The notes under the pieces were generated by a model, which ran no database searches, was not told the DNA's origin, and worked only from the letters and a program-made list of their open reading frames with translations. A stretch of DNA of 64,000 bases from Myxococcales bacterium (GTDB taxonomy: Bacteria > Myxococcota > Myxococcia > Myxococcales > Myxococcaceae), in NCBI GenBank assembly GCA_016191815.1, contig JACPVI010000006.1, forward strand, positions 248,001-312,000. The letters are read 5' to 3'. Shown here piece by piece: positions 14,859-55,016 of this stretch (position 1 is the stretch's first letter; every line of letters begins with the position of its first letter). Made by a program: the position numbers and the translations under genes.

Positions 14859-16322
14859 TCAATGCTCGTCTCCCAGGTATTGGACCGCGTAGGACTGGTA
14901 CTTCGCCGCGGGTTCCCTCCAGCACTCCAGAGGAGAGCCCTGCTTCGCGCAGAGGTGGGAGAGGAACTCCACCGGGTCCGGCAGCTCCTCCCAGACCTGG
15001 GGAAGGAACGTGGAGCGGCGGCCGCCGTATTCGAGGATCAGCCCCGGCTTGGACTGCGCCAGGTGGGAGGGGAGCTGCGCCGCCGGCACCCCCTCCAGGG
15101 GCTTGGGAAGGTCGAGCACCGAGATGGACAGCGAGAGGGAGCCCAGTTCTTCCGGTTTCACCGGAGGGAAGCGCGGGTCCGACACCGCCGCGTTCACGGT
15201 GTTCCGCACCACGTCGAGAGCGAGCGGCTGGATGGGCGAGAGGCTCCCGATGCAGCCGCGGAGCTGGCCTTCCTTCGTCAGGGTGACGAAGGCGCCGCGC
15301 GGAGTGGTGAGCCGCCGGAAGCGAGCGGTCAGCTCGGGAGGGACGTCGATCTCCTTCCCCTCGCGGACTCGCGCTCCCAGCGCGCGCTTCGCAAGCTCGA
15401 CCAGCGCGTTCCCCTCGGCGGCGCTCAGCTCGAAACGCTCCTCGTAGGCGATCGCGCCGTAGCCGACCACCCGCGACTTCTCCCCGGAGGTGTCGCCCGA
15501 GTTGGCGTAGGAGATCAGCCTGGGCGTCAGCGCCCGGATGGACGCAAGCTCGTTCATCAACAGCAGCACCTGCGTTCCATCGGTGTCGCACTTGGCGACC
15601 TCCACCGCATCGGAGCGCGCGAGCGCATCGAGGCACGGCCGGTCCAGCCCCTGGGCCACCTCGTAGGGGTAGTAGTGCGAGAGGTCCACGCTGAAGACGA
15701 ACGCCGTCTTCGGGTCGGCTAACCGGGACAGCTCGCGGGCGGCGAGGCGGATCTGATCGTGGCCGAGCGAGCCGGCGATGAGCGGGACGATCTCGAACGG
15801 CCCAGAGCCGACTGCCCTGAGGAAGGGAAGCTCGATCTCCACCATGTGCATCCCGTGGACCGCCGGCAGGTCCACGAAGCCCGGCCGCGAGAGCAGCTCG
15901 GCGGCGGCCCGCGCGACCGGAACCTCCAGCCCGGGCACCCGGTAGTGAGTGGAGCGGTCCACCGAGATGCCGGCGAAGTGATGGGCTCCGTCGTGGTTGG
16001 CGGCCACGATCACCACCCGCTCGAAGCCGGGCTCGAGTTGCTTGAAGGCGTCTGCGGCGATCCGCCCCGAGTAGGAGAGCCCGGCGTGCGGGGCGAGCAC
16101 CATCCGCACCGGCGCAGCCGCGATCTTCTTCGCGCTCTCGAGGTGGCGGCGGACCTCCGCCTGGAGCGCCGGGGCTTCCGCCGGGTAGAAACTCCCCACT
16201 GCGGCGGGCGGTCGGACAACTTTGGGAGCCGAGCTGGCAACTCCGGCGTCGGTCCCGGACTGCCGCTGGCAGCTTCCGCAAGCGGCGAGGGCGGCGGCGG
16301 AAGCGGTGAGCAGCCATTTCAT
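14859..16322 (-). CDS. AmmeMemoRadiSam system: Memo-AMMECR1 fusion lipoprotein
   Basis: 487 residues. The ATG at 16322 overlaps the stop of the upstream fusion gene (ATGA) and gives a lipoprotein signal (KWLLTASAAALAACGSC, lipobox LAAC). An earlier in-frame ATG (16361) would bury the signal. Residues ~40-290 are Memo-like (system protein B), with conserved His-containing motifs LAPHAGLSYSG and AANHDGAHH and the DLSHY motif. Residues ~297-480 are AMMECR1-like (protein A), with the hallmark LRGCIGSL and DPRFPP motifs. B and A are often separate genes beside a radical SAM enzyme; their function is unknown. Here they form one polypeptide predicted to be outside the cytoplasm. Confidence 0.88.
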   Translation of the reverse strand: MKWLLTASAAALAACGSCQRQSGTDAGVASSAPKVVRPPAAVGSFYPAEAPALQAEVRRHLESAKKIAAAPVRMVLAPHAGLSYSGRIAADAFKQLEPGFERVVIVAANHDGAHHFAGISVDRSTHYRVPGLEVPVARAAAELLSRPGFVDLPAVHGMHMVEIELPFLRAVGSGPFEIVPLIAGSLGHDQIRLAARELSRLADPKTAFVFSVDLSHYYPYEVAQGLDRPCLDALARSDAVEVAKCDTDGTQVLLLMNELASIRALTPRLISYANSGDTSGEKSRVVGYGAIAYEERFELSAAEGNALVELAKRALGARVREGKEIDVPPELTARFRRLTTPRGAFVTLTKEGQLRGCIGSLSPIQPLALDVVRNTVNAAVSDPRFPPVKPEELGSLSLSISVLDLPKPLEGVPAAQLPSHLAQSKPGLILEYGGRRSTFLPQVWEELPDPVEFLSHLCAKQGSPLECWREPAAKYQSYAVQYLGDEH

Positions 16323-19300
16323 GTCTCGAACACCCCCGCGATCGGCTCGCCGCACGGGCATCTCCCATCGGAGAGCTCGAACCGCGTGACGTGGTAGCCC
16401 TTCCGCTCGATGAGCAGCCTCCCGTCCTTCGGGCAGCGCGTGTGGTTCCCCTCGTGGCCGGGGACGTTGCCGAGGTACACGAACTGCAAGCCTTCGTCCA
16501 CCGCCCGCTGCCTGGCCTTCTCCATCTTGGGGATCGGAGTCCAGGGGAGGTGCTCCAGCCGGTGCGCCGGGTGGAACCTCAAGATGTGGAAGGGCGTCGA
16601 CGGACCCAGGGCCTCGGCCACCCAGCGCGCGAACTCGGCGATCTCCCCGGGCTCATCGGAGAGCGAAGGCACCATGAGGAAGCTCACCTCGATCCACACC
16701 CCTTCCTCGCGGAAGACCTCGAGCGCCCGCAGCACCGGCTTGAGCCTGCCTCCGCTCACCTCGCGGTAGAAGGACTCGCGGAAGGCCTTCACGTCCAAGG
16801 TCACCGCGTCGATGTGGCGGCACAGCTCCCGGAGCGGGCGCTCGTTGATGTATCCCGCGGTGACCAAGACGTTCTTGATGCCCTTCTCCCGCGCCAGCTC
16901 CGCCGCGTCGCGGACGTACTCGTAGGAGACCAGCGGCTCCGAGTAGGTGTAGGCGATCGCCGGCGCCTTGCTCTCGGTGGCGAGCCTCACCAGGTCTTCC
17001 GGCATGGCCTCGATCGAGGCGACCTCGTGCGGACGGGCCTGGGAAATCTCCCAGTTCTGGCAGTTGAGGCAGCGAAGGTTGCAGCCCCCGATGGCCACCG
17101 AGAGGATCGGCGAGCGGGGCATGAAGTGGTAGAGCGGCTTCTTCTCCATCGGGTCCATTGCCGCCGAACAGAGATTTCCGTAGGCCACCGAGTGGAGCTT
17201 CCCGCCCTTCACCACCCGAGTGCGGCAGAACCCGCGATCGTTCTCTCCGAGGATGCAGGCGTGCGGACAGAGGACGCACTGGAGCAAGTGTCCCTTCTCG
17301 ATGGACCAACTGGCCGGCCGGGAGAAGCGGTCCAAGGTGCCGGGCGCGTCGTTGCGGAAGCCCACTCCCAGCCCGGGCTCGGCAGACCGCAGGCCAAATT
17401 CCTCGACGCCCTGGGCGCCCAGGATGAGCACTCCGCAGCCGGCGGCGGAGCGGCGGAGGAAGAGCCTCCGGTCGGTCTTTTGGGGCGCCAGTGTCGCGAC
17501 TTCGCCGCGCGAGCCCGCCAAAGCGGAGCTCTCCCGTTCCTCGGCGGGAGCCGGCGGTGGCCGCCGCTCGAGGTCTGGTCCGACTCGCCGCTCGAGCTTT
17601 CCGAGCGCCTGGGAGGCCGCGCCGATGGGGCAGAGCGCCTCGCAAAACGGGCGCCTGACGAACAGCGAGAACAGTAGTAGCGCCGCAGCGGAGGCGAGCA
17701 CCCACAAGGACGGGGAGAAGGCGTTCTTGAAGAAGAAGGAGAAGAAAGGACCGCCCTCCACGCCCTCGCCCCGGTCCTGCCGGGCGGCGAAGTAGGCCAC
17801 GGCCACGAACAGGAGGACCGCCAGCCGGGGCACCCACAGACCGGCGATGCGCCTTGCCCGTCGGCCCGCCAGCCGCTCGCAGGCGCCTTGCAACGTTCCC
17901 AGCGGGCACAGCCGCTCGCAGAAGCGTTGCCCGTGGAGGTTCGCCAACAGCCCGGCGGTGACCGCGTATGGCCGGAGGACACCGAAGACGCAGGGCCTGG
18001 GGCACACATGGCAGAAGAGGTAGGGAACCCGGAAGTAGCAGCGGGCGAGCGGGAAGGCGGCCACCGGCAAGAGCAAGGCGTAGTGCGCGAGCGTTCCCAG
18101 GTTGGCGCCCGTCCACTCGCGGACCCCCGAGAGCCGCCGCGCCAGTTGGACGGTGGCCCGGCGGAGGAGCATGGGTTCGAACGCCGCGGCCGCGGCCCAG
18201 AAAAAGAGGAGCAGCGCCAGGACTTGGTAGGGGACCAGGAAGGTGAACGCGTACAGCGGCACCTGGGTGCGGTCCGCGGCGGCGGCGAGGACGAAGGCGG
18301 CGAAGGCGAGGGGCAAAAGGGGCGCCAGCTGGCGCGGGGGGGCTGCGCACTCCTCGGCGGCAGGCAGCAGCAGCGCGGCTGCGCTCAGGGCCTTGATCGC
18401 CGCGAGCGCCAGCACGGCGCCGGAGAGCCCCAAGGCCGGCACGGCCACCGTGAGCATCAACAGGGCGGCCACCGCCGCGCCGACGAGGTCGGTGGCGTAG
18501 AGCGAGCCGGCGATCCCCGGCCTGTGCGCGAGGGCGCGCGCCGCCACCGCGAACTGGGCGCCAGGCAATAGCCCCGCGAGCACGGTGGCCGTGAAGCACA
18601 GCGCCCGGGCGGCTCCCGGCTGTGCGCCGGCAATTGCCGGCAGCGTGGCCCACAGCGCGAGGAGAAGCCCAATCTGGGCGGCGTCGAGGACCAACACCGC
18701 TCGCCTCGACGCAGTCCAGCGCGCCGCGAGGGCCGAGCCGGCCGCGGCCCCGACCATGAAGCCGGCGAGCAAGAGCCCCAGCTCCCGGTACAGAGCTCCG
18801 GCGGCGATCTGGTAGGCGAGCATCAGGGCGAGCTGGGCGGAGAGCCCGCTCGCGCCGCTGGTCATCACCGCCAGGTGGATCGGCCGCCGCCGCGGGCCCA
18901 GCACCAGCAGCGCCCCGGCAGCCAGCGCCGCGGCCACCAGCGCCAGAGAGGTGACTCCCAGGTCTCCGAACTCTGCGAGCAGCCGGTCCAGGGCGAGCCG
19001 GAAGGTAGTGGGGTGGAGGTCACGGTTGATCGCCTCATCGAGGGAAGCCCAGCGCGAGGCGTCGGCCATCCGCCGTGGGGAGAAAAGATGCGCGAGCGCG
19101 GCTTCGCCGAGGTGTGCTGGCGCGATCCGGCGCGCCGCCAGGGCCGCCGAGACTTGCTCCGCGCCTCCGGTCAGCTTTCGCCCTTTGGCTGTGAGGTAGA
19201 AGGTGCGATCCGCGGGGAGGATGTGCACCCCCCCCATCACCGAAGCCAGAGTGGCCCGCACCGACGAGTGCAGCCGCCGGCTGTGCTCGCCGGCATAGGC

Positions 19301-20485
19301 GGCGTGGCCGGGCATGGAGACGGCCAAAAGCCCACCCGGGTTGAGCGCGTCCCGGGCAGCTTCGTATAGCTCCGCGGTGAAGAGGCGGTTGAGCTGAGCG
19401 GAGGTCGGCTCGCTGGAGACGAGGAGAATCGCGTCATAGGCGGCAGGACGTGAAAAGAGCCACCGGCGCGGGTCCGCCGCGCGGAGCGACAGGCGCGAGT
19501 CCGAGAGGTCTCCGAAGGCCCGCTCGATGGTGGAGAGGAGCGCCCCGTCTTCTAGCACGTAGTCGATCCGCTCCACGCCGTGGCGGAGCACCTCCCTGGC
19601 GGTGCCGACCGGCGCCACGCCGATGATGGCCACCGCGCGGGGCGAAGGGTGGAACGCGAGCGGGAGGTGGGCGGACTCTTCCGCCGCGGACTGGTCCGAA
19701 TGAGTGGCGACCGGCATCCGGTCGACGAGCACGGTGGCTTGCCCGGCGGGCCCGGAGACGACGATCGACGCGTAGGCGGAGTCGCGGCGCTCCCGGACCT
19801 CCAGGTGCGGCGCCTGGAGCGACACCGTCCACTCGTCCAGGGGCATCACGCAAAGCGCGGCGGCGACTGCCGCTGCCACGGCAAGGGCAGGTGCCGCCGC
19901 CTTGCGTGAAAAGCCCAGCACCGCCGCGAAGGTCGAGCACAGGAGGATTCCCGCCGCGATGCCGGCGGGCGGGGCGTTTCCGAGCACCACAAGGCTGAGG
20001 GCCGCCCCGGCAGCGGCCGAGCCGACCGATTCGAGGAGATATGCTCGGGCAGCGCCCTCTCCTGGAGCGCCGGCAGTCGGCTGGGCACGCGCGGATAGCC
20101 ACGAGAAGCACGCCCCAGAGAGAAGGCAGCACGGGGCGGCGAGCGCCGCGGCAGCGAGGAACGCGAACGCCACCCCAGGCGGCGAGCCGGCCGGGAAGAG
20201 GCGCGGCAGAACCCGCGCGGCGAACAGCGTGGCGAGTGCGAGTGGACCGTAGAGGAGCAGCGCCAGCGAAAGAGGGCCCTCCCTCGCGCCGGTTCTGCCC
20301 AGCCAGGCCCCCGCCGCGGTGAGCAACAGCCAAGGGCCGAGGAGCGCCGCGAGCACCGCTTCGTTTCCCGAGAAGGCCGCCAAAAGCTCGCGCCCGAGGA
20401 GCGTCTGGAACGCCGCGGTGCAGGCGCCCGCCAATAGAAGGCGCGCCCACCCAAGCCGCACCGGGGAGGTCGGGGCGGGAGTCAT
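16319..20485 (-). CDS. Fusion: polytopic spermidine synthase-like / membrane polyferredoxin / AmmeMemoRadiSam radical SAM enzyme
   Basis: 1388 residues in one uninterrupted frame. Residues 1-225: about seven membrane helices. Residues 225-400: spermidine synthase-like soluble domain (VLVDRMPVATHSD; DYVLEDGALLSTIERAFG; AYDAILL). Residues ~500-790: a second helical block as in SpeE-MFS proteins. Residues ~800-980: NapH/CcoG-like polyferredoxin with CHVCPRPC (~824), CERLCPLG (~855) and CEALCPIG (~947). Residues ~1003-1030: a twin-Arg segment (DRRLFLRRSAAGCGVLILG). Residues ~1060-1388: AmmeMemoRadiSam-type radical SAM domain with an N-terminal Cys set (CVLCPHAC) and CX3CX2C at C1135/C1139/C1142. 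The next gene encodes Memo-AMMECR1 with an ATGA overlap. The ATG at 20485 is preferred over a GTG at 20521; neither has a clear ribosome-binding site. Confidence 0.88.
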   Translation of the reverse strand: MTPAPTSPVRLGWARLLLAGACTAAFQTLLGRELLAAFSGNEAVLAALLGPWLLLTAAGAWLGRTGAREGPLSLALLLYGPLALATLFAARVLPRLFPAGSPPGVAFAFLAAAALAAPCCLLSGACFSWLSARAQPTAGAPGEGAARAYLLESVGSAAAGAALSLVVLGNAPPAGIAAGILLCSTFAAVLGFSRKAAAPALAVAAAVAAALCVMPLDEWTVSLQAPHLEVRERRDSAYASIVVSGPAGQATVLVDRMPVATHSDQSAAEESAHLPLAFHPSPRAVAIIGVAPVGTAREVLRHGVERIDYVLEDGALLSTIERAFGDLSDSRLSLRAADPRRWLFSRPAAYDAILLVSSEPTSAQLNRLFTAELYEAARDALNPGGLLAVSMPGHAAYAGEHSRRLHSSVRATLASVMGGVHILPADRTFYLTAKGRKLTGGAEQVSAALAARRIAPAHLGEAALAHLFSPRRMADASRWASLDEAINRDLHPTTFRLALDRLLAEFGDLGVTSLALVAAALAAGALLVLGPRRRPIHLAVMTSGASGLSAQLALMLAYQIAAGALYRELGLLLAGFMVGAAAGSALAARWTASRRAVLVLDAAQIGLLLALWATLPAIAGAQPGAARALCFTATVLAGLLPGAQFAVAARALAHRPGIAGSLYATDLVGAAVAALLMLTVAVPALGLSGAVLALAAIKALSAAALLLPAAEECAAPPRQLAPLLPLAFAAFVLAAAADRTQVPLYAFTFLVPYQVLALLLFFWAAAAAFEPMLLRRATVQLARRLSGVREWTGANLGTLAHYALLLPVAAFPLARCYFRVPYLFCHVCPRPCVFGVLRPYAVTAGLLANLHGQRFCERLCPLGTLQGACERLAGRRARRIAGLWVPRLAVLLFVAVAYFAARQDRGEGVEGGPFFSFFFKNAFSPSLWVLASAAALLLFSLFVRRPFCEALCPIGAASQALGKLERRVGPDLERRPPPAPAEERESSALAGSRGEVATLAPQKTDRRLFLRRSAAGCGVLILGAQGVEEFGLRSAEPGLGVGFRNDAPGTLDRFSRPASWSIEKGHLLQCVLCPHACILGENDRGFCRTRVVKGGKLHSVAYGNLCSAAMDPMEKKPLYHFMPRSPILSVAIGGCNLRCLNCQNWEISQARPHEVASIEAMPEDLVRLATESKAPAIAYTYSEPLVSYEYVRDAAELAREKGIKNVLVTAGYINERPLRELCRHIDAVTLDVKAFRESFYREVSGGRLKPVLRALEVFREEGVWIEVSFLMVPSLSDEPGEIAEFARWVAEALGPSTPFHILRFHPAHRLEHLPWTPIPKMEKARQRAVDEGLQFVYLGNVPGHEGNHTRCPKDGRLLIERKGYHVTRFELSDGRCPCGEPIAGVFET

Positions 20486-20610
20486 CGGACGCGAGTATAC
20501 GGGCAGGGACAGCCGCCCCACGGCGCGGTCGACCCCGGACCCCCCTTTCCCGGGCGTCCCCAGCCTCGGCGCGACTGGCCGAGGGCTTTGCTGCTAAAGA
20601 GCCCCGGCCG

Positions 20611-24647: not shown

Positions 24648-26108
24648 ATGCCCGACAGAATCCGAACCAATACTCCTGGCGGCCCGGCGGCCACCACCTC
24701 CTCCCCCGGGACGTACACCGTCCGCCCCGGCGATACCCTCGGCGGGATCGCCGGCCGAAACGGCACTACCGTGGCGGCGCTGGTGGAGGCCAACCGCGCC
24801 CGCTACCCGAGCCTGGCCACCGATCCGGGCCGCATCTCGGTGGGGTGGCAGCTCACCTTGCCTGCAGGCGGCCAGCCTCCGCGCACCGAGGAGCCGCAGC
24901 CCAACCGCGCCTGGCAGCCGCGCTCCAACGACGAGATCCTCTTCCTGGGCATGAACAAGGACTCGCAGCACGAGGTGGATCAGCTCCGGGCCCGAGGCGC
25001 CAAGGTCACCTACGTGAAGGACGGCTTCGCCAACGATCAGATCAAGGTCACCTCGGGAGGGCGGACCACCGCCTACGACCTCTCCACCCCGGAGGGCTCG
25101 AAGTCGTTCGCTCTGACGCTGGGACTGCCGCCGCAGCAGACCGAGCAGGTGGCGCAGGTCATCCACTCCGCGGGCGATGACGCGCGCGACGAGGTGGCGC
25201 AGATCGCCCAGGTGTGGGCGAAGGCGGAGCGCGGCGAGATGATGCCGTCGCGGTTGGTGCTGTCCGGCCACAACGTCGGCAGCGGCGTGTGGGGAGACAA
25301 CAACGGGCGGGTCTCCTTCGACACCTTGGGCGATCTCGCCGCCGCGATGCCGCGCGCCGCCCGGAGCGTCGAGGACCTGCACCTCGCCGCCTGTTACTCG
25401 GGTGGCGTCCACCTGATGGACAAGTACCGGGGGATGTTCCCCAACGTGAAGACCATCTGGGCCTACGCGGGATCGGCGCCGGGCAGCTACAGCGGCGCCA
25501 CCGCGCACGAGTCCCGCTGGGAGTCCGCCACCCGCGGCACCCGCGCCGACCTGGACCGGGAGATCGCCCGCCATACCCGAAAGGGCGAGAACGTGGCGGT
25601 CTGGAGCAGGGACCACGGCTACGTCGACGGCAACCCGCCGGCGGCGCTCGCCGACGTGCGGCGCGAGTACGAAGGCACCCTGCCGGAGTTCGACCGGCAC
25701 TTCAGCGGCGCGAGCCCGGTCACCGATCCCCAGTCGGGCCCCTTGCGCGACTACTACAACCGGCTCCAGCGCGTGCTGCAGCACCCCCAGTTGCCCGCCG
25801 CCGATCGCTCCGGACTCGAGGCCAGGCGTGACACCACCATCCGCCTCATCTTCTACCCGACGATGGTGGCGCCGAAGTTCTCCGAGCACCACCGGGACGC
25901 CATCCGCTCCGGGTTCGACTCGGTCGGGCTTCCGCCGCCCAACTTCGCGTCACTCTCGCGCGCGGACGCGCTGGCGAAGATCGCCGAGTTCGAAGCCAAG
26001 GTGAGCCAGGCCAGGCCGCCTCCCGCTGCGGCCTCCCGGCTGCTCCCGCTGCTGACGGACGGCCTGCGCGACCTCAAGCGGTCGGTCATCCCTGACGGCT
26101 GGGTGTAG
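24648..26108 (+). CDS. LysM-domain protein with putative caspase-like (clan CD) domain
   Basis: 486 residues. After a Pro/Thr/Gly-rich start (MPDRIRTNTPGG) comes a LysM domain (~23-70, TYTVRPGDTLGGIAGRNG ... WQLTLP), which binds peptidoglycan or chitin-like glycans. Residues ~95-340 look like an alpha/beta domain with a hydrophobic strand plus H208 (RLVLSGHN) and, 41 residues on, a second strand plus C249 (DLHLAACYSGG). This is the block-His/block-Cys order of clan CD cysteine peptidases, though HN replaces the usual HG. No classical signal peptide is visible, which is odd for a LysM protein; the N-terminus resembles those of the proteins at 59841 and 61165. The catalytic assignment is inference. 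Confidence 0.7.
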   Translation: MPDRIRTNTPGGPAATTSSPGTYTVRPGDTLGGIAGRNGTTVAALVEANRARYPSLATDPGRISVGWQLTLPAGGQPPRTEEPQPNRAWQPRSNDEILFLGMNKDSQHEVDQLRARGAKVTYVKDGFANDQIKVTSGGRTTAYDLSTPEGSKSFALTLGLPPQQTEQVAQVIHSAGDDARDEVAQIAQVWAKAERGEMMPSRLVLSGHNVGSGVWGDNNGRVSFDTLGDLAAAMPRAARSVEDLHLAACYSGGVHLMDKYRGMFPNVKTIWAYAGSAPGSYSGATAHESRWESATRGTRADLDREIARHTRKGENVAVWSRDHGYVDGNPPAALADVRREYEGTLPEFDRHFSGASPVTDPQSGPLRDYYNRLQRVLQHPQLPAADRSGLEARRDTTIRLIFYPTMVAPKFSEHHRDAIRSGFDSVGLPPPNFASLSRADALAKIAEFEAKVSQARPPPAAASRLLPLLTDGLRDLKRSVIPDGWV

Positions 26109-27614: not shown

Positions 27615-28508
27615 ATGGACGCACTATCGGCCTCATTCCGGGCGCTGGGAGATCCGACTCGGCTGCGGATTCTGCGCCTCTTGGCCGAGGCGCCGCTCAA
27701 CGTCTCGGAGCTGGTGTCGCTGGTGGGGGTGGCGCAGTCGTCGGTGTCTCACCACCTCGCCAAGCTCCGCGGGCTCGAGCTGATCCGCGAGGAGCGGCAG
27801 GCTGGCTACACTTTCTATTCGCTCGCGGTGGGGCCGAAGGACCGCCGCTGGCCGCTCATCCGGCTCGCTCGGGAGGCCGGGGATTCCGGCGGAGACCGCG
27901 CGCGGCTGGCCGACCTGCTCCGCCAGCGCGAGGACCGCCAGGCGCTGAACGAGAAGCTGCTCGAGCCCGGCCAGTCGTGGTTTCTGTGGGCCAACGCGCT
28001 CTCCTCGCTCCTGCCGGCCTTGGAGGTCGCCGACTTCGGATGCGGGACCGGGGTGCTGTCGGTGGCCATCGCCCGCTGGGCGAACCGGGTGGTGGCGATC
28101 GACCGGAACCGCCAGGCCCTCTCGCAGGCCCGGCGCCGGGCCGCCCGAGACCGGCTGAGGAACATCCGCTTCCTCGACGAGGATCTGAGGCGGCTCTCGC
28201 TGCCAGATCAGTCGCTCGATCTGGTGGTCATCTCGCAGAGCCTCCACCACGTGGAGGAGCCGGCGGCGGCGATCGGCGAGGCCTCGCGAATCCTCCGGCG
28301 CGGCGGGAAGGTGGTAGTCCTCGAGCTGATGCCCCACCGCGAGGAGTGGGTGAAGGAGCGCCTCGGGCACCTGCACCTCGGCTTCGATCCGGCCGCGCTC
28401 GAATCCCAGCTCGCCCGCGCCGGCTTCGAGGACGTCGCCCGGGAGGCCCAGGTCAAGAACGGTGTCTCGCAGTTCCGGGTGTTCCTCCTCACCGGAGCGA
28501 AGGCATGA
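27615..28508 (+). CDS. ArsR-family regulator fused to a SAM-dependent methyltransferase
   Basis: 297 residues. Residues ~5-80 are an ArsR winged helix (RALGDPTRLRILRLL; VAQSSVSHHLAKLR). No obvious metal-binding Cys cluster is seen. Residues ~130-290 are a class I methyltransferase fold with motif I VADFGCGTGVLSVA (~138) and the late motif VVISQSLHHVEEP. The gene overlaps metH by ATGA, so the pair is co-translated. ArsR proteins that sense S-adenosylhomocysteine are known to control methionine-cycle genes (SahR of Desulfovibrio). A similar role, with the methyltransferase fold as SAM/SAH sensor, is a reasonable inference here. Confidence 0.9.
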   Translation: MDALSASFRALGDPTRLRILRLLAEAPLNVSELVSLVGVAQSSVSHHLAKLRGLELIREERQAGYTFYSLAVGPKDRRWPLIRLAREAGDSGGDRARLADLLRQREDRQALNEKLLEPGQSWFLWANALSSLLPALEVADFGCGTGVLSVAIARWANRVVAIDRNRQALSQARRRAARDRLRNIRFLDEDLRRLSLPDQSLDLVVISQSLHHVEEPAAAIGEASRILRRGGKVVVLELMPHREEWVKERLGHLHLGFDPAALESQLARAGFEDVAREAQVKNGVSQFRVFLLTGAKA

Positions 28509-31500
28509 ACAGCGACGGAGCTCCGCGCCCGACCCTCACCCCCGCCGAGCGGAGCGCGCGGCGCGCCAGAGTCGAGCTGCTCCGGAAGGCGGTAGGCGAG
28601 CGGATCCTCGTGCTCGACGGGGCGATGGGGACGATGATCCAGTCCAAGGGCCTCCGGGCGGCGGACTTCGGCGGCGCCGAGCACGAGGGCTGCAACGAGC
28701 ACCTGGTGGTGACCCGGCCCGCGCTCATCGAGGGAATCCACGCCGAGTACTTCGGCGCCGGCGCCGACGTCACCGAGACGAACACCTTCGGCGGCACGCC
28801 GCTCGTGCTGGGCGAGTACGGGCTGTCCTCGCAGGCCCACCGGCTGAACCTCCAAGCCGCCCGGCTGGCCCGCGCCGCCGCAGAGCGCTTCTCCGCTGAC
28901 GGGCGGCCCCGGTGGGTGGCCGGCTCGATCGGTCCCACCACCAAGGCCATCTCGGTGACCGGCGGCATCGGCTTCGAGGGGCTGTCGGCGCACTTCGAAG
29001 CGCAGGCGTTCGGCTTGCTCGAAGGCGGCGTGGACTTCATGCTGATCGAGACCTGCCAGGACACCCGCAACGTCAAGGCAGCGGTGCTGGGCATGCAGCG
29101 CGCCTTCGAGCGGGCGGGCGACGAGGTGCCGATCGCCCTCTCCGCCACCATCGAGCCGATGGGCACGATGCTCGCTGGCCAGTCGGTGGAGGCGCTCTAC
29201 GCGTCGGTGGAGCACCTGGAGTTGCTCTACCTTGGGCTCAACTGCGCCACCGGGCCGGAGTTCATGACCGACCACCTCCGCTCGCTGGCACGCCTCTCGC
29301 GCTTCCCGCTTGCCTGCGTCCCCAATGCGGGCCTTCCCGACGAGAACGGCCGCTATCTGGAAACGCCCCAGATGGTGGCCCGGGTGCTCCGCCGCTTCGC
29401 GGAGGCGGGTTGGCTCAACCTGGTGGGCGGCTGCTGCGGCACGCACTCCGGCCATGTCAGGGCGATGGCAGAGGCGGTTCGCGGCCTCGCACCCCGGGCG
29501 GCCGGTGCGCCTCGCCGGTCGATTCTCTCCGGGATCGACTTCGTCGACGTGGAGGAGGCCCGGCCGGTGATCGTCGGCGAGCGCACCAACGTGATCGGCT
29601 CGAAGAAGTTCAAGGAGCTGATCTGCGAGGGGAAGTGGGAGGAGGCCTCGGAGATCGCCCGGGGCCAGGTGAAGCGCGGGGCGCTGGTGGCGGACATCTG
29701 CCTGGCCAACCCCGACCGGGACGAGCTGGAGGACATGCGGCGCTTCCTGGAGGCGGCGGTGAAGAAGGTGCGGGTGCCGCTGATGTTCGACACCACCGAC
29801 GAGCGGGTGGCCGCGGCCGCGCTCACCTACAGCCAAGGGAAGGCGATCATCAATTCCATCAACCTCGAGGACGGCGAGGGGAGTTTCCGGCGGGTGGCGG
29901 CGCTCTCGCGAAAGTTCGGCGCGGCGCTGGTGGTGGGCTGCATCGACGAGGAGGGGATGGCAGTGCAGCGCGAGCGGAAGCTCAAGGTGGCGGAGCGCTG
30001 CTTCGGCCTGCTCACCGAGGCTCTGGGCGTGCCGCCCGAGGACATCTACTTCGATCCGCTGGTGTTCCCCTGCGCCTCCGGGGATGCGAAGTACGCCGGC
30101 AGCGCGGTGGAGACCATCGAAGGCCTGAGGCTCATCCGCCAGCGCTTCCCCCGCTGCCGCACGGTGCTCGGCATCTCTAACGTCTCCTTCGGGCTCCCGC
30201 CGGCCGGGCGCGAGGTGTTGAACTCGGTCTTTCTCTACCACTGCGTCCAGGCCGGGCTGGACTTGGCCCTGGTCAACGCCGAGAAGCTGGAGCGCTACCC
30301 GCAGCTCCCGGAGCTGGAGCGCACCCTCGCCGAGGACCTCCTCTTCGGGCGCGGGGCGGATCCGGCGGCGACCTTCGCCTCCCACTTCCGCGAGCGGAAG
30401 CCGAAGGTGGCCGATCGCAGCTCGCTCCCGCTGGACGAGCGCCTCGCCCGACACGTGGTGGAGGGCTCGCGGGAGGGCCTCTTCGAGGACCTGGAGGAGA
30501 AGCTCCGCACCACGGCTCCGCTGGAGATCATCAACGGCCCACTGATGAAGGGGATGGACGAGGTCGGCCGGCTCTTCGCCTCCAACGAGCTGATCGTCGC
30601 GGAGGTGCTCCAGAGCGCGGAGGCGATGAAGGCCGCGGTGAGCTACCTCCAGCCGAAGATGGGCCAGGGGGCGGGGCCGCAGCGCGGCAAGGTGCTCCTC
30701 GCCACGGTGAAGGGCGACGTGCATGACATCGGGAAGAACCTGGTGGAGATCATCCTCGCCAACAACGGCTTCCAGGTGGTGAACCTGGGCATCAAGGTGA
30801 GCCCGGAAAAGCTCGTGCAGGCGGTGCGGGAGCACCGGCCCGACCTGCTTGGACTCTCGGGGCTGTTGGTGAAGAGCGCCCAGCAGATGGTGTCCACCGC
30901 CGAGGACTTGAGCCGGGCCGGCGTCGAGGTGCCGGTCCTGGTGGGAGGCGCGGCGCTCTCCGGCAGCTTCGTCGACCGGCAGATCGCCCCAGCCTACGCG
31001 GGGACGGTGGCGCACGCCCGTGACGCCATGGCCGGGCTCGAGCTGGCCAAACGGATGGTCGAGCCCGCCTCGCGGGCGAGGCTGGAGAGGGAGCTGGCCG
31101 AGCGGCGTTCCAAGCTCAAGCAGGAGGAACGCGTCCGCCCCCGGCCGCCGTCGGCGAGCACAGCCCGCTCGCCGCACATTCCGATCCTCGGCCGTCTCCC
31201 GGAGCCGCCGGATCTCGAGCGGCACGTCCTCACCCTGGCTCCACTCGAGCACATCTGGCGGTTCGTCAACCCGGTGATGCTCTACGGCCGGCACTTCGGG
31301 GTGAAGGGCTCGGCCGCCCGCGCCCTCGGCACGAAGGAGGAGGGCAGGCTCAGGGGCACCGAGGAGGGAGAGAAGGCGCTGGAGCTCAAGCGAGCGATCG
31401 ACGCGCTCAAGGCCCACCTCAAGGAAAGCGAGCGGATGAAGGCCAAAGCGGTGTTCCGCTTCTTCAAGGCCGCGAGCGAAGGGAACTTCATCCATCTCTT

Positions 31501-32020
31501 CGAGGAGGGAAGAACCAGCCCGGCGGCGAGCTTCGAGTTTCCAAGGCAGGAGGGAGAGCCCAGGGCCTGCCTGTCGGACTTCGTCTCGCCCCTCGAGGCG
31601 CCCCCGAAGGACAGCCTGTGCCTCTTCGTCACCACCGCCGGAGAGGGCGTACGCGAGCTGTCGGAGGAGCTGAAGTCCCGCGGCGAGTTCTTGAAGATGC
31701 ACGCGGTGCAGGCGCTCGCCCTGGAGACGGCCGAGGCCTACGCGGAGATGCTCCACGCGCAGATCCGGAGCATGTGGGGCTTCCCTGATCCGCCGGAGCT
31801 GACCATGCTCGAGCGCTTCCGCGCCGAGTACCAGGGGAAGCGGTACTCCTTCGGCTATCCGGCCTGCCCGCACCTCGAGGACCAGGCGAAACTGTTCAGC
31901 CTGCTCTCGCCCGAGGAGATCGGGGTCTCCCTCACCGATGGCTGCATGATGGAGCCGGAGGCCTCGGTCTCGGCGATGGTCTTCCACCACCCCGGCGCCT
32001 TCTACTTCTCGGTGGCCTAG
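28505..32020 (+). CDS. metH: Cobalamin-dependent methionine synthase
   Basis: 1171 residues, close to the full-length four-module enzyme. Module 1 (homocysteine binding) has the zinc Cys residues C247 and C310/C311 (GGCCGTHS). Module 2 binds methyltetrahydrofolate (IVGERTNVIGSKKFKEL). Module 3 binds B12 with the cap helices and the axial H740 in DVHDIGKN. Module 4 is the SAM-dependent reactivation domain ending RYSFGYPACPHLEDQ. It transfers a methyl group from methyl-THF through cobalamin to homocysteine. The ATG at 28505 overlaps the regulator's stop codon. I see no cobalamin riboswitch upstream. Confidence 0.97.
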   Translation: MNSDGAPRPTLTPAERSARRARVELLRKAVGERILVLDGAMGTMIQSKGLRAADFGGAEHEGCNEHLVVTRPALIEGIHAEYFGAGADVTETNTFGGTPLVLGEYGLSSQAHRLNLQAARLARAAAERFSADGRPRWVAGSIGPTTKAISVTGGIGFEGLSAHFEAQAFGLLEGGVDFMLIETCQDTRNVKAAVLGMQRAFERAGDEVPIALSATIEPMGTMLAGQSVEALYASVEHLELLYLGLNCATGPEFMTDHLRSLARLSRFPLACVPNAGLPDENGRYLETPQMVARVLRRFAEAGWLNLVGGCCGTHSGHVRAMAEAVRGLAPRAAGAPRRSILSGIDFVDVEEARPVIVGERTNVIGSKKFKELICEGKWEEASEIARGQVKRGALVADICLANPDRDELEDMRRFLEAAVKKVRVPLMFDTTDERVAAAALTYSQGKAIINSINLEDGEGSFRRVAALSRKFGAALVVGCIDEEGMAVQRERKLKVAERCFGLLTEALGVPPEDIYFDPLVFPCASGDAKYAGSAVETIEGLRLIRQRFPRCRTVLGISNVSFGLPPAGREVLNSVFLYHCVQAGLDLALVNAEKLERYPQLPELERTLAEDLLFGRGADPAATFASHFRERKPKVADRSSLPLDERLARHVVEGSREGLFEDLEEKLRTTAPLEIINGPLMKGMDEVGRLFASNELIVAEVLQSAEAMKAAVSYLQPKMGQGAGPQRGKVLLATVKGDVHDIGKNLVEIILANNGFQVVNLGIKVSPEKLVQAVREHRPDLLGLSGLLVKSAQQMVSTAEDLSRAGVEVPVLVGGAALSGSFVDRQIAPAYAGTVAHARDAMAGLELAKRMVEPASRARLERELAERRSKLKQEERVRPRPPSASTARSPHIPILGRLPEPPDLERHVLTLAPLEHIWRFVNPVMLYGRHFGVKGSAARALGTKEEGRLRGTEEGEKALELKRAIDALKAHLKESERMKAKAVFRFFKAASEGNFIHLFEEGRTSPAASFEFPRQEGEPRACLSDFVSPLEAPPKDSLCLFVTTAGEGVRELSEELKSRGEFLKMHAVQALALETAEAYAEMLHAQIRSMWGFPDPPELTMLERFRAEYQGKRYSFGYPACPHLEDQAKLFSLLSPEEIGVSLTDGCMMEPEASVSAMVFHHPGAFYFSVA

Positions 32021-47654: not shown

Positions 47655-50600
47655 CTAGTTGATCTCGACGACAACGGGGCAGACCATCGCGTTTGCAGCA
47701 CCCGTGCACTTGGTTCCGAATGCTCTAAGCGTGCTGATCGAGCCAAGCTGCAGTTGTGCTTTGACGACGGCGTCCTCTACGGCCGCGCGTCCTTTGAGAG
47801 CTTTGAGGACTTCGCGAACTGTCCTGTAGCCCTCGTCTTGATTGATGTCTACGTCCCAGCCCAGGTACGCTTCGGCTCCGAACTTCGCCGCAAACTGTTC
47901 GGCGGCGCTTCCCTGTTGTCCCGAGCGGCAGCCGTCAATCCACACAAACCTATACTGAAGCCCCCCAGGCAGGTCATCAGGAGTCAATAGCTGATCCTCG
48001 ACCTTCGAGGAGAAGAACGGCGGGTCGACTGCAATCCCGATGAAGACTTCGTCAGGGACTGCGGAGTGCGTGTCGGTGAGCCACAGGCTGGCTTTCGGCG
48101 CAGCGTCCAGCGCGTCCTGCTTGCTCAGCGATCGATCCTTGATGATCTCGTAGCCAAGTCCCGCTCCTGGGCCCACGAGCGGGATGACCAGATTGTAATT
48201 GCCTTCGGCACGCTTCCGCCCGTCGGGGCTCTCGTAGTAGTAGGCGACGAACGCTGTTCGGTCGCGGCGCCGGGTATCGATAGGCTCGCTCGCAACGAAG
48301 GTCACGCTGATTTCCTCTCCGGCGCTCGGGGTAGTCGAGGAGAGTTCGAAAGCGGTGAAACCTGGCGGCGCGGTTCCCCCAGATTCGATCGCCACGAAAG
48401 GAGTGGATCTAAAAGCGCCATCAGGCTGGCGCGTGACAGTGACTGAACTGCTGCGAACAGGATTCTGGCTCGTGAGCGTGACTGAGAAACTTGCCGCCGC
48501 CTGGTCGGGATCAATCGCGCCAGCCACGAAAGTGGATGCGGACGACGGTGACGCGGGCGCCACGTTCAGCGCCGGTAGTCGTGACCCGCTCCTGAACGCC
48601 AGCGAATTGTTGGCAGTCTCAACGGACGCGACCCGCTCGTTGGCCAACGACGCCGAAACCACAGTGATGTCCCAAACCTGCCAATCGCGGGCGAGCGGGT
48701 CGAACCCAGAGGACGACTGGAGGATCGCCGTGACATTGCCCGTTGGGTCCTGGAACCGTCGGCTGTCTGCCGCCGTTTCCGTAACCGTCACGAGAAGGCC
48801 GGTTCCGCTGAGGGGCGGCACGACGATCATGTCAGCGCGGTCTTCGACCAGAGCGGAGAGCGGCTGGCGGAGATAGGCTTGGACTTCCCCGCCCGAGTCG
48901 TGGAAGAAGCTCGAAGCTGCCCGACTCTCGCGCAGATCGAATCGGGACACGGCGAGGTTCAGGCTTGTGCTCTCGGCGAGCACCCCGGACAGCGATTCAC
49001 TCACCGCGGGATCCAGAGTTGGCGCCGCGGGCAGGGTGACGCGCACCGCCGCGCCGGGGCTCTCGAAGACCAGACTCGTGTTGCTCGTCTCGAGCAGGTC
49101 CCCACTGAAGAGACCGTCCGGACCTGCCCCAAGGGTGACAGAGACTCGGTCCGCCGCAGTGGAGCTGAGCGGCCCAGAGAAGGCTAGGTCCAGCGCCGCG
49201 CCGCCTTCGGGAGGCGGGCCCGCCCCGACACCGCTTTGCGGTACGAACACCGATACCGAACCCGCGAGGGAACCCTCGATGCGTGCTGCGCCTACAGGTT
49301 GTACCGCCACCGCACGGGCGCTCGATGAGACCGTGACTTCGCGCAGAACCTGTGCGCTCGTGCCTGTGGTGGCGCGCACATTGTCGTACTTCAGAACCAG
49401 AAGTTTCCCGTCAAAGCGGGTTGCAAGAATGTGCTCGCCATCTGGCGTGAACGCTATTCCCAACACCCCTTGTTGGAGGCCAGGTTTGGGAGTCGATGCA
49501 GAGTACGTGAGCGTGCTGGCTACCAACGGCTCGCTGATCAGACCCACATTCGATGTCAACTGGTCCATCCCGGCAGCCGCGAGGTGCACCGTTGGCGAGA
49601 AGGCGATGTCGCGAGGCGCGTGAATGTCGGTCCCAATCGCTCCGCCAGTCGCGACCTTCGTGTCGATCTTCCGAACGATCGTGCGAGTTATGGAGTCGAC
49701 CACCTCAATCGCACCCGCCACGGCGGGAGCCACCGTTGTCCCCGAGGCAACAAACAACGTGGGGTTCCCACTTCGTTGCCTGGGCGCGATCCGAACTCGT
49801 CTTGCCGTGGCACCGACGGTGAGCAGCGTCGGTGAGCCAGTGGGAAGGAGAGTGTCCGCGTCAAGGAAAGCGAGCTTGCCCTTGCCAAGAACGAACAGGG
49901 TTTGACCGTCGTGGGAGACCTCAACATCGAACAAGGGAGACGCACCCGAAAGAAGCTGGTTCGCCCCGGTCAACTGCACATCCGCGATCTTGGTATGGAA
50001 AGTCGCAGACCCGGGGCTCGCGTCTAGCACCGCCAGATTGTCCCGGCAGGCGACATATACACGGCGGCCGTCCGGGGAAACCCGCAGGGAGGAGGGGCCC
50101 GTCGGCATCGGAATCAGCGGGCCTTGCGTTGGCGCAGCAGCGGGAACTTGACGGAGATCGAGTATCCCGACTTGATTCGTGCCAAGGAGGCTCATGTAGG
50201 CGTAGTCAGCCTGTGGCCTCAGCGCAATGCTTGTTGGCGACGCGGCAAGCGGAATCGGCGCGCCCACCGTTGTCCAAAGATTGGCATCCGGGTTTCGGAT
50301 GTCGATCGGCTGAACAGAGCTCAGCGCCCCGACGTACGCGTACGGGTGGAGGGCTTTCACAACCTGTAAGCCCGAGCTGGTGCCCCCGGAGGTTGCTACG
50401 GTCACGAGGCCCGTCTGGAAACCGCCTGGCACGGTGGCCGTAATGCTGGTGGGCGACGCCGCAGTCACCTGGGCGGCCACGCCTGGGAAGAACTCGACGC
50501 GGCTTTCCCCGATGACGCTGGAGAAGTTCGCTCCGGTCAAGGTCACGCTGTCGCCAACCTGCAATAGGCTTGGGCTGATGCTCGTGAGCGATGGTGCAGG

Positions 50601-53600
50601 CGGCGGGGTGACGATCGCGGTCTTCGCGAGAGCGAAGGGAGTGTCGGCGTTGCTTGCTACGCCGCCGGTCTCGACGCTGATGGCACCCGAGACAGCGCTC
50701 GCGGGAATCGTCGCTCGCAATTCCGTCGCAGAAACCGCCGTTACCGATGTGGAAGCAATCCCGCCGAACTTGACGACGTTGTTGGAGGACACGGGATCGA
50801 AGCGAGCGCCCAATATCGTGACTACAGTTCCGGGCGGCCCGTGGTCAGGGGAGGCGCTGAGCACCGTGGGCGCGTGTTGCACCGCAAAAGCAAGGGGGTT
50901 GCTCACTTGGCCGGTGACGGCATCAGTCAGTTCGACCGGTCCCGACTGGGCGCCGGGCGGCACCTTTACGTCCAGCGAGGTCGGCGCAGCGGCGAGAACT
51001 GTGGCGAGTCGTCCGCTGAACGTCACCAGGCTATCAGCGGCATTCGTGGAGAATCCGGCGCCGGAGATTGTCACAAGGGCGTTCGGAGGCCCATTGTTTG
51101 GTGTCAGGGCGGTAAGCGTGGGTCCTCCCGACGCGGCCAACACGGTGAACGGGAGCGCGTTGCTTGCCTGACCAAGCCGCGTCACCTGAATGCTCGCTGC
51201 GCCGGCCGGCGCGTTGGGGACAGGAGCGACCAGAAAGGTCGGCGAAACTTCCAAAACCGCGGCGGCGGTTCCGGCGATAGTCACGGTGTTTCCAGCTGGT
51301 GCTGCATCAAAACCGAGGCCGGAGATCGTCACGGTGGCCCCCGGAACCCCTTGGTTGGGGCGCACCGACTGGAGGAGCGGCGCTTGGCGCGTGAATGTCG
51401 CCGTGGCTGAGCCGGCGTTACCCTGATTATCCTTGATGGTGGCCTGTAGAGAATGAGCCCCGACCGAAACGTTGGTCAGCTTCCCGATGATCCGACCGGT
51501 AGGCTGATACATGTTCGTGAGTGCGACCGTCGCTCCATCCAACGCCAGGACAAAAGTCGAACTGTCGATCCCGCTGCTTGGACTGGGATCTGCGTACGTC
51601 ACCTCGACACTCACCGTCGAATCAAAGACGATCGAGCTTGAGGCCGGTGCTACAATTACTACCGTGGGAGGCGCGATGTCCTCGGATGGGTCGCACGCAG
51701 TGCCGACGCCATTCCCGTTGAGATCCTGCTGATTCGGGTTCGCAGCGGTCGGGCAGTTGTCGCAGGTGTCACCGACGCCATCGGCATCTCCGTCAACCTG
51801 ACTCGCGTTGGCGACAAGGGGGCAGTTGTCGGCGCCAGTGCATGCCGCGGCTGTCTGTCCAGGATCGCAAATGCCATCGCCATCATCGTCTGAATCGCAG
51901 GCGTCACCCTGGCCATCGGTGTCACTGTCCCTTTGGTCGGCGTTTGCGACCATCGGGCAGTTGTCGGTGGTATCTGGCTCGCCGTCGTTGTCGTCGTCGG
52001 GGTCGCAGGCATCGCCCAGGCCGTCGGCATCGGTGTCATCCTGGTTCGGGTTGGGCGTCGTCGGGCAGTTGTCCGGACCCTTCACGCGGAAGCCATCTCC
52101 GTTCTCCACACCGTCGGTGTCGAGGTGAGTGTCATAGATGAGGCGCACCCTGTGGTTGGCGGCATCGGCCACGAGGAGGTCGCCGTCCTTCGTGAGCGCC
52201 ACTCCCGTCGGGTCGAAGAAGGCGGTGCCGACCGGATGCCGTCCATCGCCGTCATAGGCGCAGGCGTTGGCCCATAGGTTGGGGAAGATGACGATGCGCT
52301 GCCTGTCGCCGCCCAACTCCGTGAGGCAGCCCGTTTGCCCCGAGCGGACGGAAATACGCTGTTGGAGTCGCTCGGTGAAGTAGATGTCGCCGGTCTTGCT
52401 ATTCACCGCCATGCCGGCCAGATCGCCGAACGGAAAATCCAGGCTGAAGGCGGGTCTGGGAATCGGGGGAAGCAAGGTTTCCCTTTCCCCACCCAGCACC
52501 GTCTTCGCCAAACCGCAGGTGCCGTTCGCCGCGGGCCAGACCGTGACCGGAGAAGAACCCGCCGGCGCGAGATTCACGACCTCAAGCGTCTTGCTTTGAT
52601 TGTCGGCTATGTAGAGGAGCTTCGTCGAAGCCCCGCTCTGCAACCCAGCGGGAGAAACGGCGGCCACGAAGGGCCGACGAGTGAGGCCGCCCTGCGGGGT
52701 GGGACAGATGCCCCCGATGCTCGGAGGCATCGGAGGCAGCGGCACTCGGGTGAAAGGCGGCGCAGCCAGCCTCACCCCGGCGCCGCCAGCAGGCACAACG
52801 AAGTACTGGCTGCCGATGACGTACACGTCCCCGGTGTCCGCATCGACCGCGAGGCCCAGCACCTCGCCCAAGTCGGAAGCCGTCGCGGGCGACACCAGGT
52901 TCGACATGGAAGTGACGGCAGTCGTGCCTCCGCCCGCGTAGGGAGAGGCCGTCCCTCCGGAGATTTTCCACACCTGCTTCCCCACCCTGTCTCCCACGAA
53001 CGCCTCTCCGGCCTTGTTGACGCCCAAGCCGATGCCTCGCACGCCGCTTACGCTGCCCTTGAGCACCAGCCTTTGAGTGGCGGCGTCCAGCTTGTAGACG
53101 CTCGTCTTGGTGCCATCGTAGCTGCTCGCGTAGAAGGAGCCGTCGTCGGCCACCGCGGTCCACTCGGGCGTGGGGAGGGCCGTCTTCCACGCCTCCACCG
53201 TCGTGCTGGTGGTGCCGGAGGTGCCGTCTCCCGCCAAAGTCTCCACCCGAACGTCCGATGGCACGGTGGGCTGGAGGCCGTCTTGGTAGATGGAGAAGCT
53301 CGTGACGCGCGCGTGCATGAGGCCGCCGCTCTCGGATGCTCCGGCCACCTCCCCGAAGACGCCCTGGCCAGAGTCGAGCCGGTACATCCGCACCCTCGAA
53401 ATGTCGCCCCAGACTGCCGGAAGCAGCGTCCGGTCGAAGGGCACCGAGATGGTGACTGGCACGGCGAAGCCCGAGGCGTTCGTCTCGAAGGCCACCGCCG
53501 GGCCGAGCGCCACCACTCCGTCTCCGAGCGGAGGCAGCGAGTCCGCCTCAATCAGCCGAATCCAAACCCACACCTGCTGGGAGACGGCGCCCGGCGGCAC

Positions 53601-55016
53601 CGCCACCGAGGCCCCCAACAGAGGGCCGACTGCCGTCACTGACACGCTCCCACCGCCGGGGCCGATGAGGGCATAGGCGGGCGGCCTTTGGTGGAGGACA
53701 GTCACATCGAAAACCGAGAGGTTGCCAGCCTCGTCCTCGGCCTCCGCGCGAATGAGGTTTTGGCCCTCCGACAGCGTCACCTCGGAGGTGAAGTTGCCCT
53801 GGGCCAGTGCCGCTGCCACCGCGTTGACTCTTACCTCCTTCAGGAGGAAGTCGTCGGCTGCACTGCCCCGCACTTGCACCACTATCTCCTCGGTGGCCGC
53901 ACCGTCTGCCGGCGCCGAGACGACTACCGTGGGCGGAACGCCATCGTGCCGGACGGCGACGGTGGCCTCGGGCCCGGCGTTTCCCGCCAAGTCCACCGCG
54001 GTCGCGCGGAGTTGGTTTTCCACGTTGGGCGCAAGTTGCACTGCCACCGAGAAGTGGCCGGCCGCGTCGGCGACGGTGGAAGCGGGGGAGCTCCCGCCGA
54101 GGACGAAGACAGTGGCGAAGGCCTCGGTGCTGCCTGAGAGGGAGATGGGGGTTTGGTTGGTGGGACTGCGCACCGGCTCCAGGGTGGGGGCTGGCGGCGG
54201 CGTGGTGTCGCCCAGCGCGCGGAGCAACGCGTCGAATTCGGCTTGCTGCCGAGTCACCGAAAGCCATCGCTTGGCCGCCTCCTCCGCTCCCTTAGGAGGG
54301 AAGGCGTCTCGCCCCTTCTGCGCCCCCATGAAGGCGATGAGAAGCTGCTTCACCGGGTTGGCAACTACGGTTGAAGGGGAGCTCACCACGCGGTCGTCCC
54401 CCGGAGCACCCTTGCCGCCAGGCGGTGCAGAGTTGTGGGCCGCAGCGTTGAGGCCCTCGCCCAAGTCGTTGCCCCGCGCTACCTCCCACACCAGGAATTG
54501 CCGCTCAAAGGGAAGCCCCGCCACCTGCGCCGACGACAGCGGAGCGCTGGCGGCCAGATTGACGGCTTGGGCCACCTCCAGCACGGACTTCGGGGCTCCG
54601 TAGGCGAGCCGGCGAAGCTCTGCACAGTTCAGCGCGAAGGTCCCGTGGAGCCGAATCGCCGCGCCTGCCGCCGTCATCCTCCGCTCTGCCGGGCCGAGCG
54701 CCGAGATAGAGGGGTAGACGGCCAGCGGGCCTACCGCTTCGAGGGAGTCGAGCAGGAGGAAGGCCTCGCGCGAGATCTGGCCCAGCGAGAACTCTTCTAC
54801 CGGCCGGCTTGGGTTCGCCGCCTTCAATTCCTCTACGAGGGAGTCGATCGGCAATCCGCAGTTCGCAGCTCCGGGCGTCAGCGGCCCATCGCCTCCTTCG
54901 GGTCGCGCGGCCTCGTCCTTGGATGACGTGCAGCCAAGCGCCGCGAACGCGCATGCGATGATGCCGACAGCGGCCAATCTTGAACGATTCGCGTTCCTCC
55001 AGAGGCGGCTTTGCAT
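47655..55016 (-). CDS. Giant multidomain lipoprotein: Ig-like, NHL, thrombospondin type 3, IPT, beta-propeller, caspase-like C-terminus
   Basis: 2453 residues with a lipoprotein signal ([14 protein letters not shown]). In order: a helical N-terminal part; Ig-like domains (~275-440, [14 protein letters not shown]...); a ZU5-like segment ([14 protein letters not shown] ... VPPGAVS, ~450); NHL-type repeats (~590-970); and calcium-binding thrombospondin type 3 repeats (~976-1112, D-rich, [21 protein letters not shown]). Three or four IPT/TIG domains (~1216-1553) follow, then a YVTN-like propeller (~1560-1900). The C-terminus carries H2317 ([10 protein letters not shown]) and C2363 ([12 protein letters not shown]), spaced as in caspase-like proteases. 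It is probably a surface adhesin or sensor. GGAAGGGGG precedes the ATG. Confidence 0.88.

Follow-up and report, generated by a model that had tools for sequence, protein, structure and literature searches.

We report a gene on the forward strand of the window, the whole 64,000-nucleotide stretch of a Myxococcales bacterium genome analysed here, whose product is probably a leaderless clan CD cysteine endopeptidase from a family unlisted in the libraries, with a LysM domain as an add-on. Very probably, the protein is a protease with a His/Cys dyad and belongs to a family of clan CD. In the mechanism that we favour, C249, where the fourth core strand ends, would act as the nucleophile, with H208, where the third ends, as the base, the arrangement that caspases, C11 proteases, legumain and CHAT proteases share. 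The helical C-terminal domain, which is conserved, may cover or regulate the active site, like the C-terminal region of legumain. LysM, which was added in one clade, would tether the enzyme to peptidoglycan or a different GlcNAc polymer after the enzyme has left the cell or lysis has released it. Proteolysis by the window protein can be expected with good confidence. For the LysM-bearing member, we put the chance that it acts at the wall and not in the cytosol just short of even, and autoregulation by the C-terminal domain is a tentative proposal made by analogy.

An earlier note, made from the letters alone, had described an open reading frame (ORF) with a LysM domain at this position, and both were recovered, the LysM domain scoring 38.3 bits against the Pfam cut-off of 20.9 (Table 1). 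Because full-length homologues occur at 41–65% identity and dN/dS was 0.15–0.31 in all six close pairs tested, this ORF is a real gene under purifying selection. The source assembly (6.77 Mb) is 98.8% complete, and the genes flanking the protease gene are ordinary by Pfam: a CoA-binding protein, a radical SAM/B12 protein and an ArsR-methyltransferase. The stop-to-stop frame comprises 488 codons, the sole start codon 5' of the LysM domain is the ATG at 24648 and an in-frame stop precedes it; therefore, a signal peptide could not be gained from a start further upstream. At the N-terminus, the sequence MPDRIRTNTPGGPAATTSSP is hydrophilic, and no Sec signal peptide was found in the window protein by hydropathy, which is not a trained signal-peptide predictor. 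The absence of an export signal, also claimed in the earlier note, was thus borne out for this protein by hydropathy and the single start.

Table 1. Features of the LysM–protease gene, in window positions
Feature	Position	Strand	Basis
Gene for LysM protein with clan CD-like protease domain, 486 aa, stop codon included	24648..26108	+	ORF, homologues, dN/dS
Hydrophilic Pro/Thr-rich N-terminus, residues 1–20, low model confidence, no signal peptide	24648..24707	+	model, hydropathy
LysM domain, residues 23–72	24714..24863	+	PF01476, E 1.2e-9
Flexible linker, residues 75–87, pLDDT < 50	24870..24908	+	AlphaFold2 model
Predicted caspase-like (clan CD) alpha/beta catalytic domain, residues about 88–324	24909..25619	+	model, fold search, profile comparison
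Codon of H208, predicted catalytic His, two residues past core strand 202–206, invariant in 36/36	25269..25271	+	model, alignment
Codon of C249, predicted nucleophile, two residues past core strand 243–247, invariant in 36/36	25392..25394	+	model, alignment
Conserved all-helical C-terminal domain, residues about 327–486	25626..26105	+	homologues, model

The clan CD fold and the geometry of the dyad are strongly predicted by structure modelling. The AlphaFold2 model, built from 26 homologues, reached a mean pLDDT of 87.9, with most of the core above 90. Its core strands (97–101, 120–123, 202–206, 243–247, 269–273 and 316–320) follow one another in caspase order, the positions being those of the model. 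H208 (LVLSGHN) and C249 (DLHLAACYSGG), which the earlier note had singled out as each following a hydrophobic block, do so, and in the model they stand two residues past the third and the fourth core strand, respectively. An excerpted account of clan CD describes a six-stranded sheet in which the His/Cys dyad sits where strands 3 and 4 end (PMC4357240). When the Foldseek candidates were realigned with VIA-align 2, all 50 of the 50 matches listed were clan CD proteins, with Z scores of 8.8–13.1 over model residues 87–324. The best among the matches listed was the SAVED-CHAT protein 8tl0_C (Z 13.1, rmsd 3.0, 163 residues aligned), and others among them were iotapain (11.0), legumain (9.9), GPI transamidase (9.8), caspases (8.8–9.7) and gingipain K (9.1); here, we take CHAT and GPI transamidase to be members of the clan. 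Foldseek against the PDB gave no hit at E <= 0.001, the best being legumain at 4.9e-3 with ketopantoate reductases among the hits ranking next, and the best hit in the Foldseek viral library was a C11 protease (E 1.3e-5). In the C-terminal domain the helices span residues 334–474 with pLDDT mostly 92–98; modelled alone from the single sequence, this domain came out poorly (pLDDT 62.5).

The conservation of the proposed dyad was assessed on 36 distinct rows kept from 55 collected, after the removal of fragments (L031, L032), an off-family hit (L033) and duplicates. Two relatives' genomes with nothing but degenerate pieces (G001/L142; G021/L143, with internal stops) were left out of the counts, as was the weak unrelated match in G098 (L033), while L060 was retained, though its frame ends early and thus lacks the C-terminal domain. 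Both H208 and C249 are identical in all 36 rows, so that neither outcome named in the earlier note as refuting it, another fold or poor conservation of either residue, was observed, and they are among only 13 invariant columns of 399 (E109, D181, A187, E194, S206, G207, H208, G220, P235, A238, C249, F264 and P265) in an alignment whose sequences diverge to under 40% identity. The pair is also kept in a 37th sequence, the second copy in one genome (L077 in G036), and in the most distant row, L139 from G192. The protein encoded there (L139:3002-6715, minus strand) is itself unusual, being a leaderless protein of 1,238 aa with a distant copy of the catalytic domain at its C-terminal end; a peptidoglycan-binding-1-like segment can be made out by eye before that domain, where Pfam gave nothing at E <= 0.1.

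Profile–profile comparison relates the core to the caspases and metacaspases. With hhalign, the 32-row core profile aligned to 25 Peptidase_C14 rows from relatives with a score of 43.6 (probability 73%; E 3.1e-5 for a single comparison), and C249 fell on the C14 Cys, which we take to be the catalytic one; the match is short, covering 32 columns around this residue. None of 120 column-shuffled decoys reached 43.6, the best of them scoring 25.4, and reversed profiles scored at most 17.9. For scale, CHAT against C14, both of which belong to clan CD, scored 44.7, and C14 against C11 just 21.2. The core profile gave no significant match to the CHAT or C11 rows, and the score of 19.7 against DUF4347 (PF14252, five rows to compare) lay within the decoy range and was not significant. 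Because the C14 match is significant and the CHAT, C11 and DUF4347 comparisons are not, the core is assigned by these sequence profiles to clan CD but to no named Pfam family tested.

The profile libraries themselves pass over the domain. In the window protein, residues from about 88 to 486 had no Pfam family match beyond stray hits, and a Pfam scan of 27 family members at E <= 1 returned LysM and stray hits only, without a match to any clan CD model. Peptidase_C14 (PF00656) had no match at E <= 1 in these 27 members, and neither CHAT (PF12770) nor Peptidase_C11 (PF03415) matched the window protein or the 27 members above the Pfam cut-off. Searches of the core against NCBIfam and PHROGs, and against PADLOC with three proteins, likewise returned LysM or stray hits only, and PDB sequence searches with the family found nothing relevant. 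Pfam detected no clan CD family in the 17 distinct window ORFs scanned. The source genome has five Peptidase_C14 (metacaspase-like) hits on other contigs (two on C4 and one each on C24, C19 and C63); CHAT was absent from it at E <= 1e-10 and C11 at the threshold used.

Set against known systems, the window protein shares some features with several clan CD families and differs from them in others. CHAT (PF12770; SAVED-CHAT 8tl0) provides the best structural match among the matches listed, at 18% identity, and likewise places its His and Cys where successive strands end; the profile comparison is not significant, though DLHLAACYSGG of the window protein pairs with LVVLSACDTGRG. Unlike SAVED-CHAT, the window protein has no SAVED or TPR part and carries an extra helical C-terminal domain and a LysM domain. 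The C14 group (caspases and bacterial metacaspases) agrees in strand order and dyad position and supplies the only significant profile match of the core; however, the DxCHSG motif of metacaspases is missing from the window family, which has A/G/N-C-Y/S/N instead. The C11 family (clostripain, iotapain) is alike in that 212 residues of iotapain could be aligned, reaching the C-terminal region, and in that C11 proteases are among the best viral-library hits, whereas secretion is described for the solved C11 matches and the window family is leaderless. Legumain (C13) resembles the window protein in position, with helices following its protease domain, and this C-terminal region of legumain is self-inhibitory according to the excerpt of PMC4357240. 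Caspase homologues with a peptidoglycan-binding domain have been published before: a putative domain of this kind was present in 11 of 671 prokaryotic metacaspases (1.6%; PMC3501461, in the part available). Those proteins resemble the window protein in tying a caspase homologue to the wall and differ from it in belonging to C14 and in having been detected with a C14 model, and LysM goes unmentioned in that part of the source (PMC3501461). What would be new is a leaderless LysM–clan CD family outside the libraries; among the matches listed from the titles and abstract starts of open-licence PMC papers, none dealt with this type of protein.

The family is very probably centred on Myxococcota and absent from Pfam, NCBIfam, PHROGs and PADLOC. 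Matches at E <= 0.001 were found in 28 of 144 relatives' genomes, the source genome included, three of the 28 (G001, G021 and G098) containing fragments or an off-family hit; within the phylum, 30 of 195 genomes matched the family alignment at E <= 1e-5. A single-sequence query of named genome contigs found nothing. The alignment query gave 25 loci, nearly all from Myxococcota or from genomes labelled Deltaproteobacteria, and one labelled Gammaproteobacteria; the named relatives are Myxococcaceae/Archangiaceae. No relative of the protease was found in viral contigs and plasmids, the phage records matching LysM only, as judged by the query range covered.

Across the rows, the catalytic domain and the helical C-terminal domain are constant and the N-terminus varies. 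It consists of a LysM domain in 11 of 36 rows and of a Pro/Thr-rich linker without LysM in 7; in others it is an EF-hand-like segment (L052, L053 and L082; below the Pfam cut-off for L052) or nothing, core-only members such as L048, L050 and L021 beginning directly at the first core strand. In the tree, the LysM rows fall inside one set of 19 rows, so that several losses are needed, some long branches being unsure. Since LysM occurs in a single clade and was lost several times, it is not needed for the function of the core. Seven members without LysM (L042–L046, L049 and L057) nevertheless keep a short Pro/Thr-rich N-terminus of the MPDRV/MSSRI-like type, as if it were functional itself. The gene neighbourhoods are also variable. 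When the window and 24 of the 25 loci (L060 was not used) were compared over flanks of up to 8–9 kb, several of them shortened by contig ends, no neighbour was found to be conserved, such as one for immunity or secretion. Apart from ORFs that overlap the gene out of frame, the best clusters of neighbours covered 5 and 3 of the 25 loci at scattered distances, and a conserved operon was rejected on these counts.

The lack of a leader is a trait of the family. By a hydropathy test (a 12-residue stretch of mean Kyte–Doolittle >= 1.8 in the first 45 residues, again not a trained predictor), 35 of the 36 rows have no hydrophobic N-terminal stretch, and the exception, L055, has a Sec-like signal when read from an alternative start. 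The source genome contains 13 LysM matches in 10 proteins, and LysM usually occurs on wall-facing proteins. Seven of the ten (L174, L175, L178, L182, which is the window protein, L183, L184 and L186) look leaderless, with a hydrophilic N-terminus or with LysM right at the start, leader and start sites being judged by eye. The other six lie on contigs C7, C11, C10, C46, C16 and C25 of this genome (G000), in that order. Four of the seven have Peptidase_C39_2-like domains, that of the L174 protein scoring just below the cut-off; one C39_2-like protein also has a weak SLT match, and another leaderless protein has a phage-tail lysozyme domain. These six further proteins suggest a leaderless set of wall-binding enzymes. 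Because seven of the ten LysM proteins look leaderless, predicted wall-lytic enzymes among them, a non-Sec or lysis route for wall-active proteins in the source genome is plausible. An extended version of this idea, which we put forward as rather unlikely, is that an arsenal of such proteins, defined by a short hydrophilic, often Pro/Thr-rich N-terminus and a LysM domain without a Sec signal, would be released through an undescribed non-Sec pathway or through programmed lysis and remain bound to the peptidoglycan. It would comprise caspase-like, C39 (papain-like), lysozyme and transglycosylase domains, the window protein being the caspase-like member, and the sorting signal could be LysM or the MPxRI-type N-terminus retained after LysM loss.

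The most serious competitor to a wall-bound protease, with a substantial chance that falls somewhat below even, is an intracellular caspase-like protease that never leaves the cell. LysM, where present, would then serve in the cytosol as a scaffold or as a sensor, with muropeptides or GlcNAc oligomers as possible ligands, and activation of the protease would take place inside the cell under stress, in development or in defence, as proposed for its C14 and CHAT relatives. The near-universal lack of a hydrophobic N-terminal stretch fits this explanation, as do the core-only members, which look cytosolic, the EF-hand-like N-termini, which suit a regulated enzyme, and the nearest solved structure among the matches listed, a CRISPR-linked CHAT protease. 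However, the usual wall-facing habit of LysM argues against it, some at least of the leaderless LysM proteins with lysozyme-, transglycosylase- and C39-like domains need access to the wall, the L055 protein can be read with a Sec-like signal, and no signalling neighbour is conserved.

The same data bear on the proposal of the earlier note that the protein could be a cell-wall-targeted effector, which held up in part. The wall connection gains from leaderless LysM proteins, several predicted to be wall-lytic, being common in the source genome, while the minority share of LysM and its repeated loss, the core-only members starting at the first strand and the lack of a conserved neighbour count against the proposal. 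Delivery of a toxin-like effector into or onto prey cells, with LysM aiming it at the wall, is improbable. The pairing of LysM with a predicted protease and the patchy occurrence in myxobacteria (28 of 144 relatives' genomes) would suit it, and caspase-like toxin or processing domains and LysM both occur in polymorphic toxins, according to part of PMC3482391. Nevertheless, the whole core is conserved, unlike a C-terminal tip that is swapped, LysM is repeatedly lost, no viral or plasmid copy was found, and the 25 loci compared share no immunity or delivery neighbour, which makes a toxin–immunity pair unlikely. A caspase-like fold with another job, as a non-peptidase hydrolase or an inactive binding protein, is just as improbable: fold alone is no proof of activity and the closest profile match (C14) is short, but loss of the His or Cys would be expected somewhere in the family if the protein were inactive, and both stand among the few invariant columns of this divergent alignment.

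If the favoured assignment of the core holds, clan CD gains a sequence family that is missed by current profile libraries, and therefore caspase-like proteases would be undercounted in predatory bacteria with complex development. Export of the leaderless LysM proteins, if it takes place, would point to a myxobacterial route of protein release; if it does not, the pairing of LysM with a protease would represent an intracellular glycan-sensing protease, new in another way.

Three further observations concern other parts of the window. The tRNA-Glu called by ARAGORN at 31037-31127 (+) lies within a long ORF on the same strand (27977-32020) and is probably a false call. The ORF at 16322-20521 (-), of 1,400 aa, combines Spermine_synth, Fer4_5 and Radical_SAM domains, which is unusual for one protein, and two or more genes may lie in this frame. 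The 2,453-aa ORF at 47655-55016 (-) encodes a large surface-type protein with Big_6, Glucodextran_B, ZU5, NHL, TSP_3 and TIG domains.
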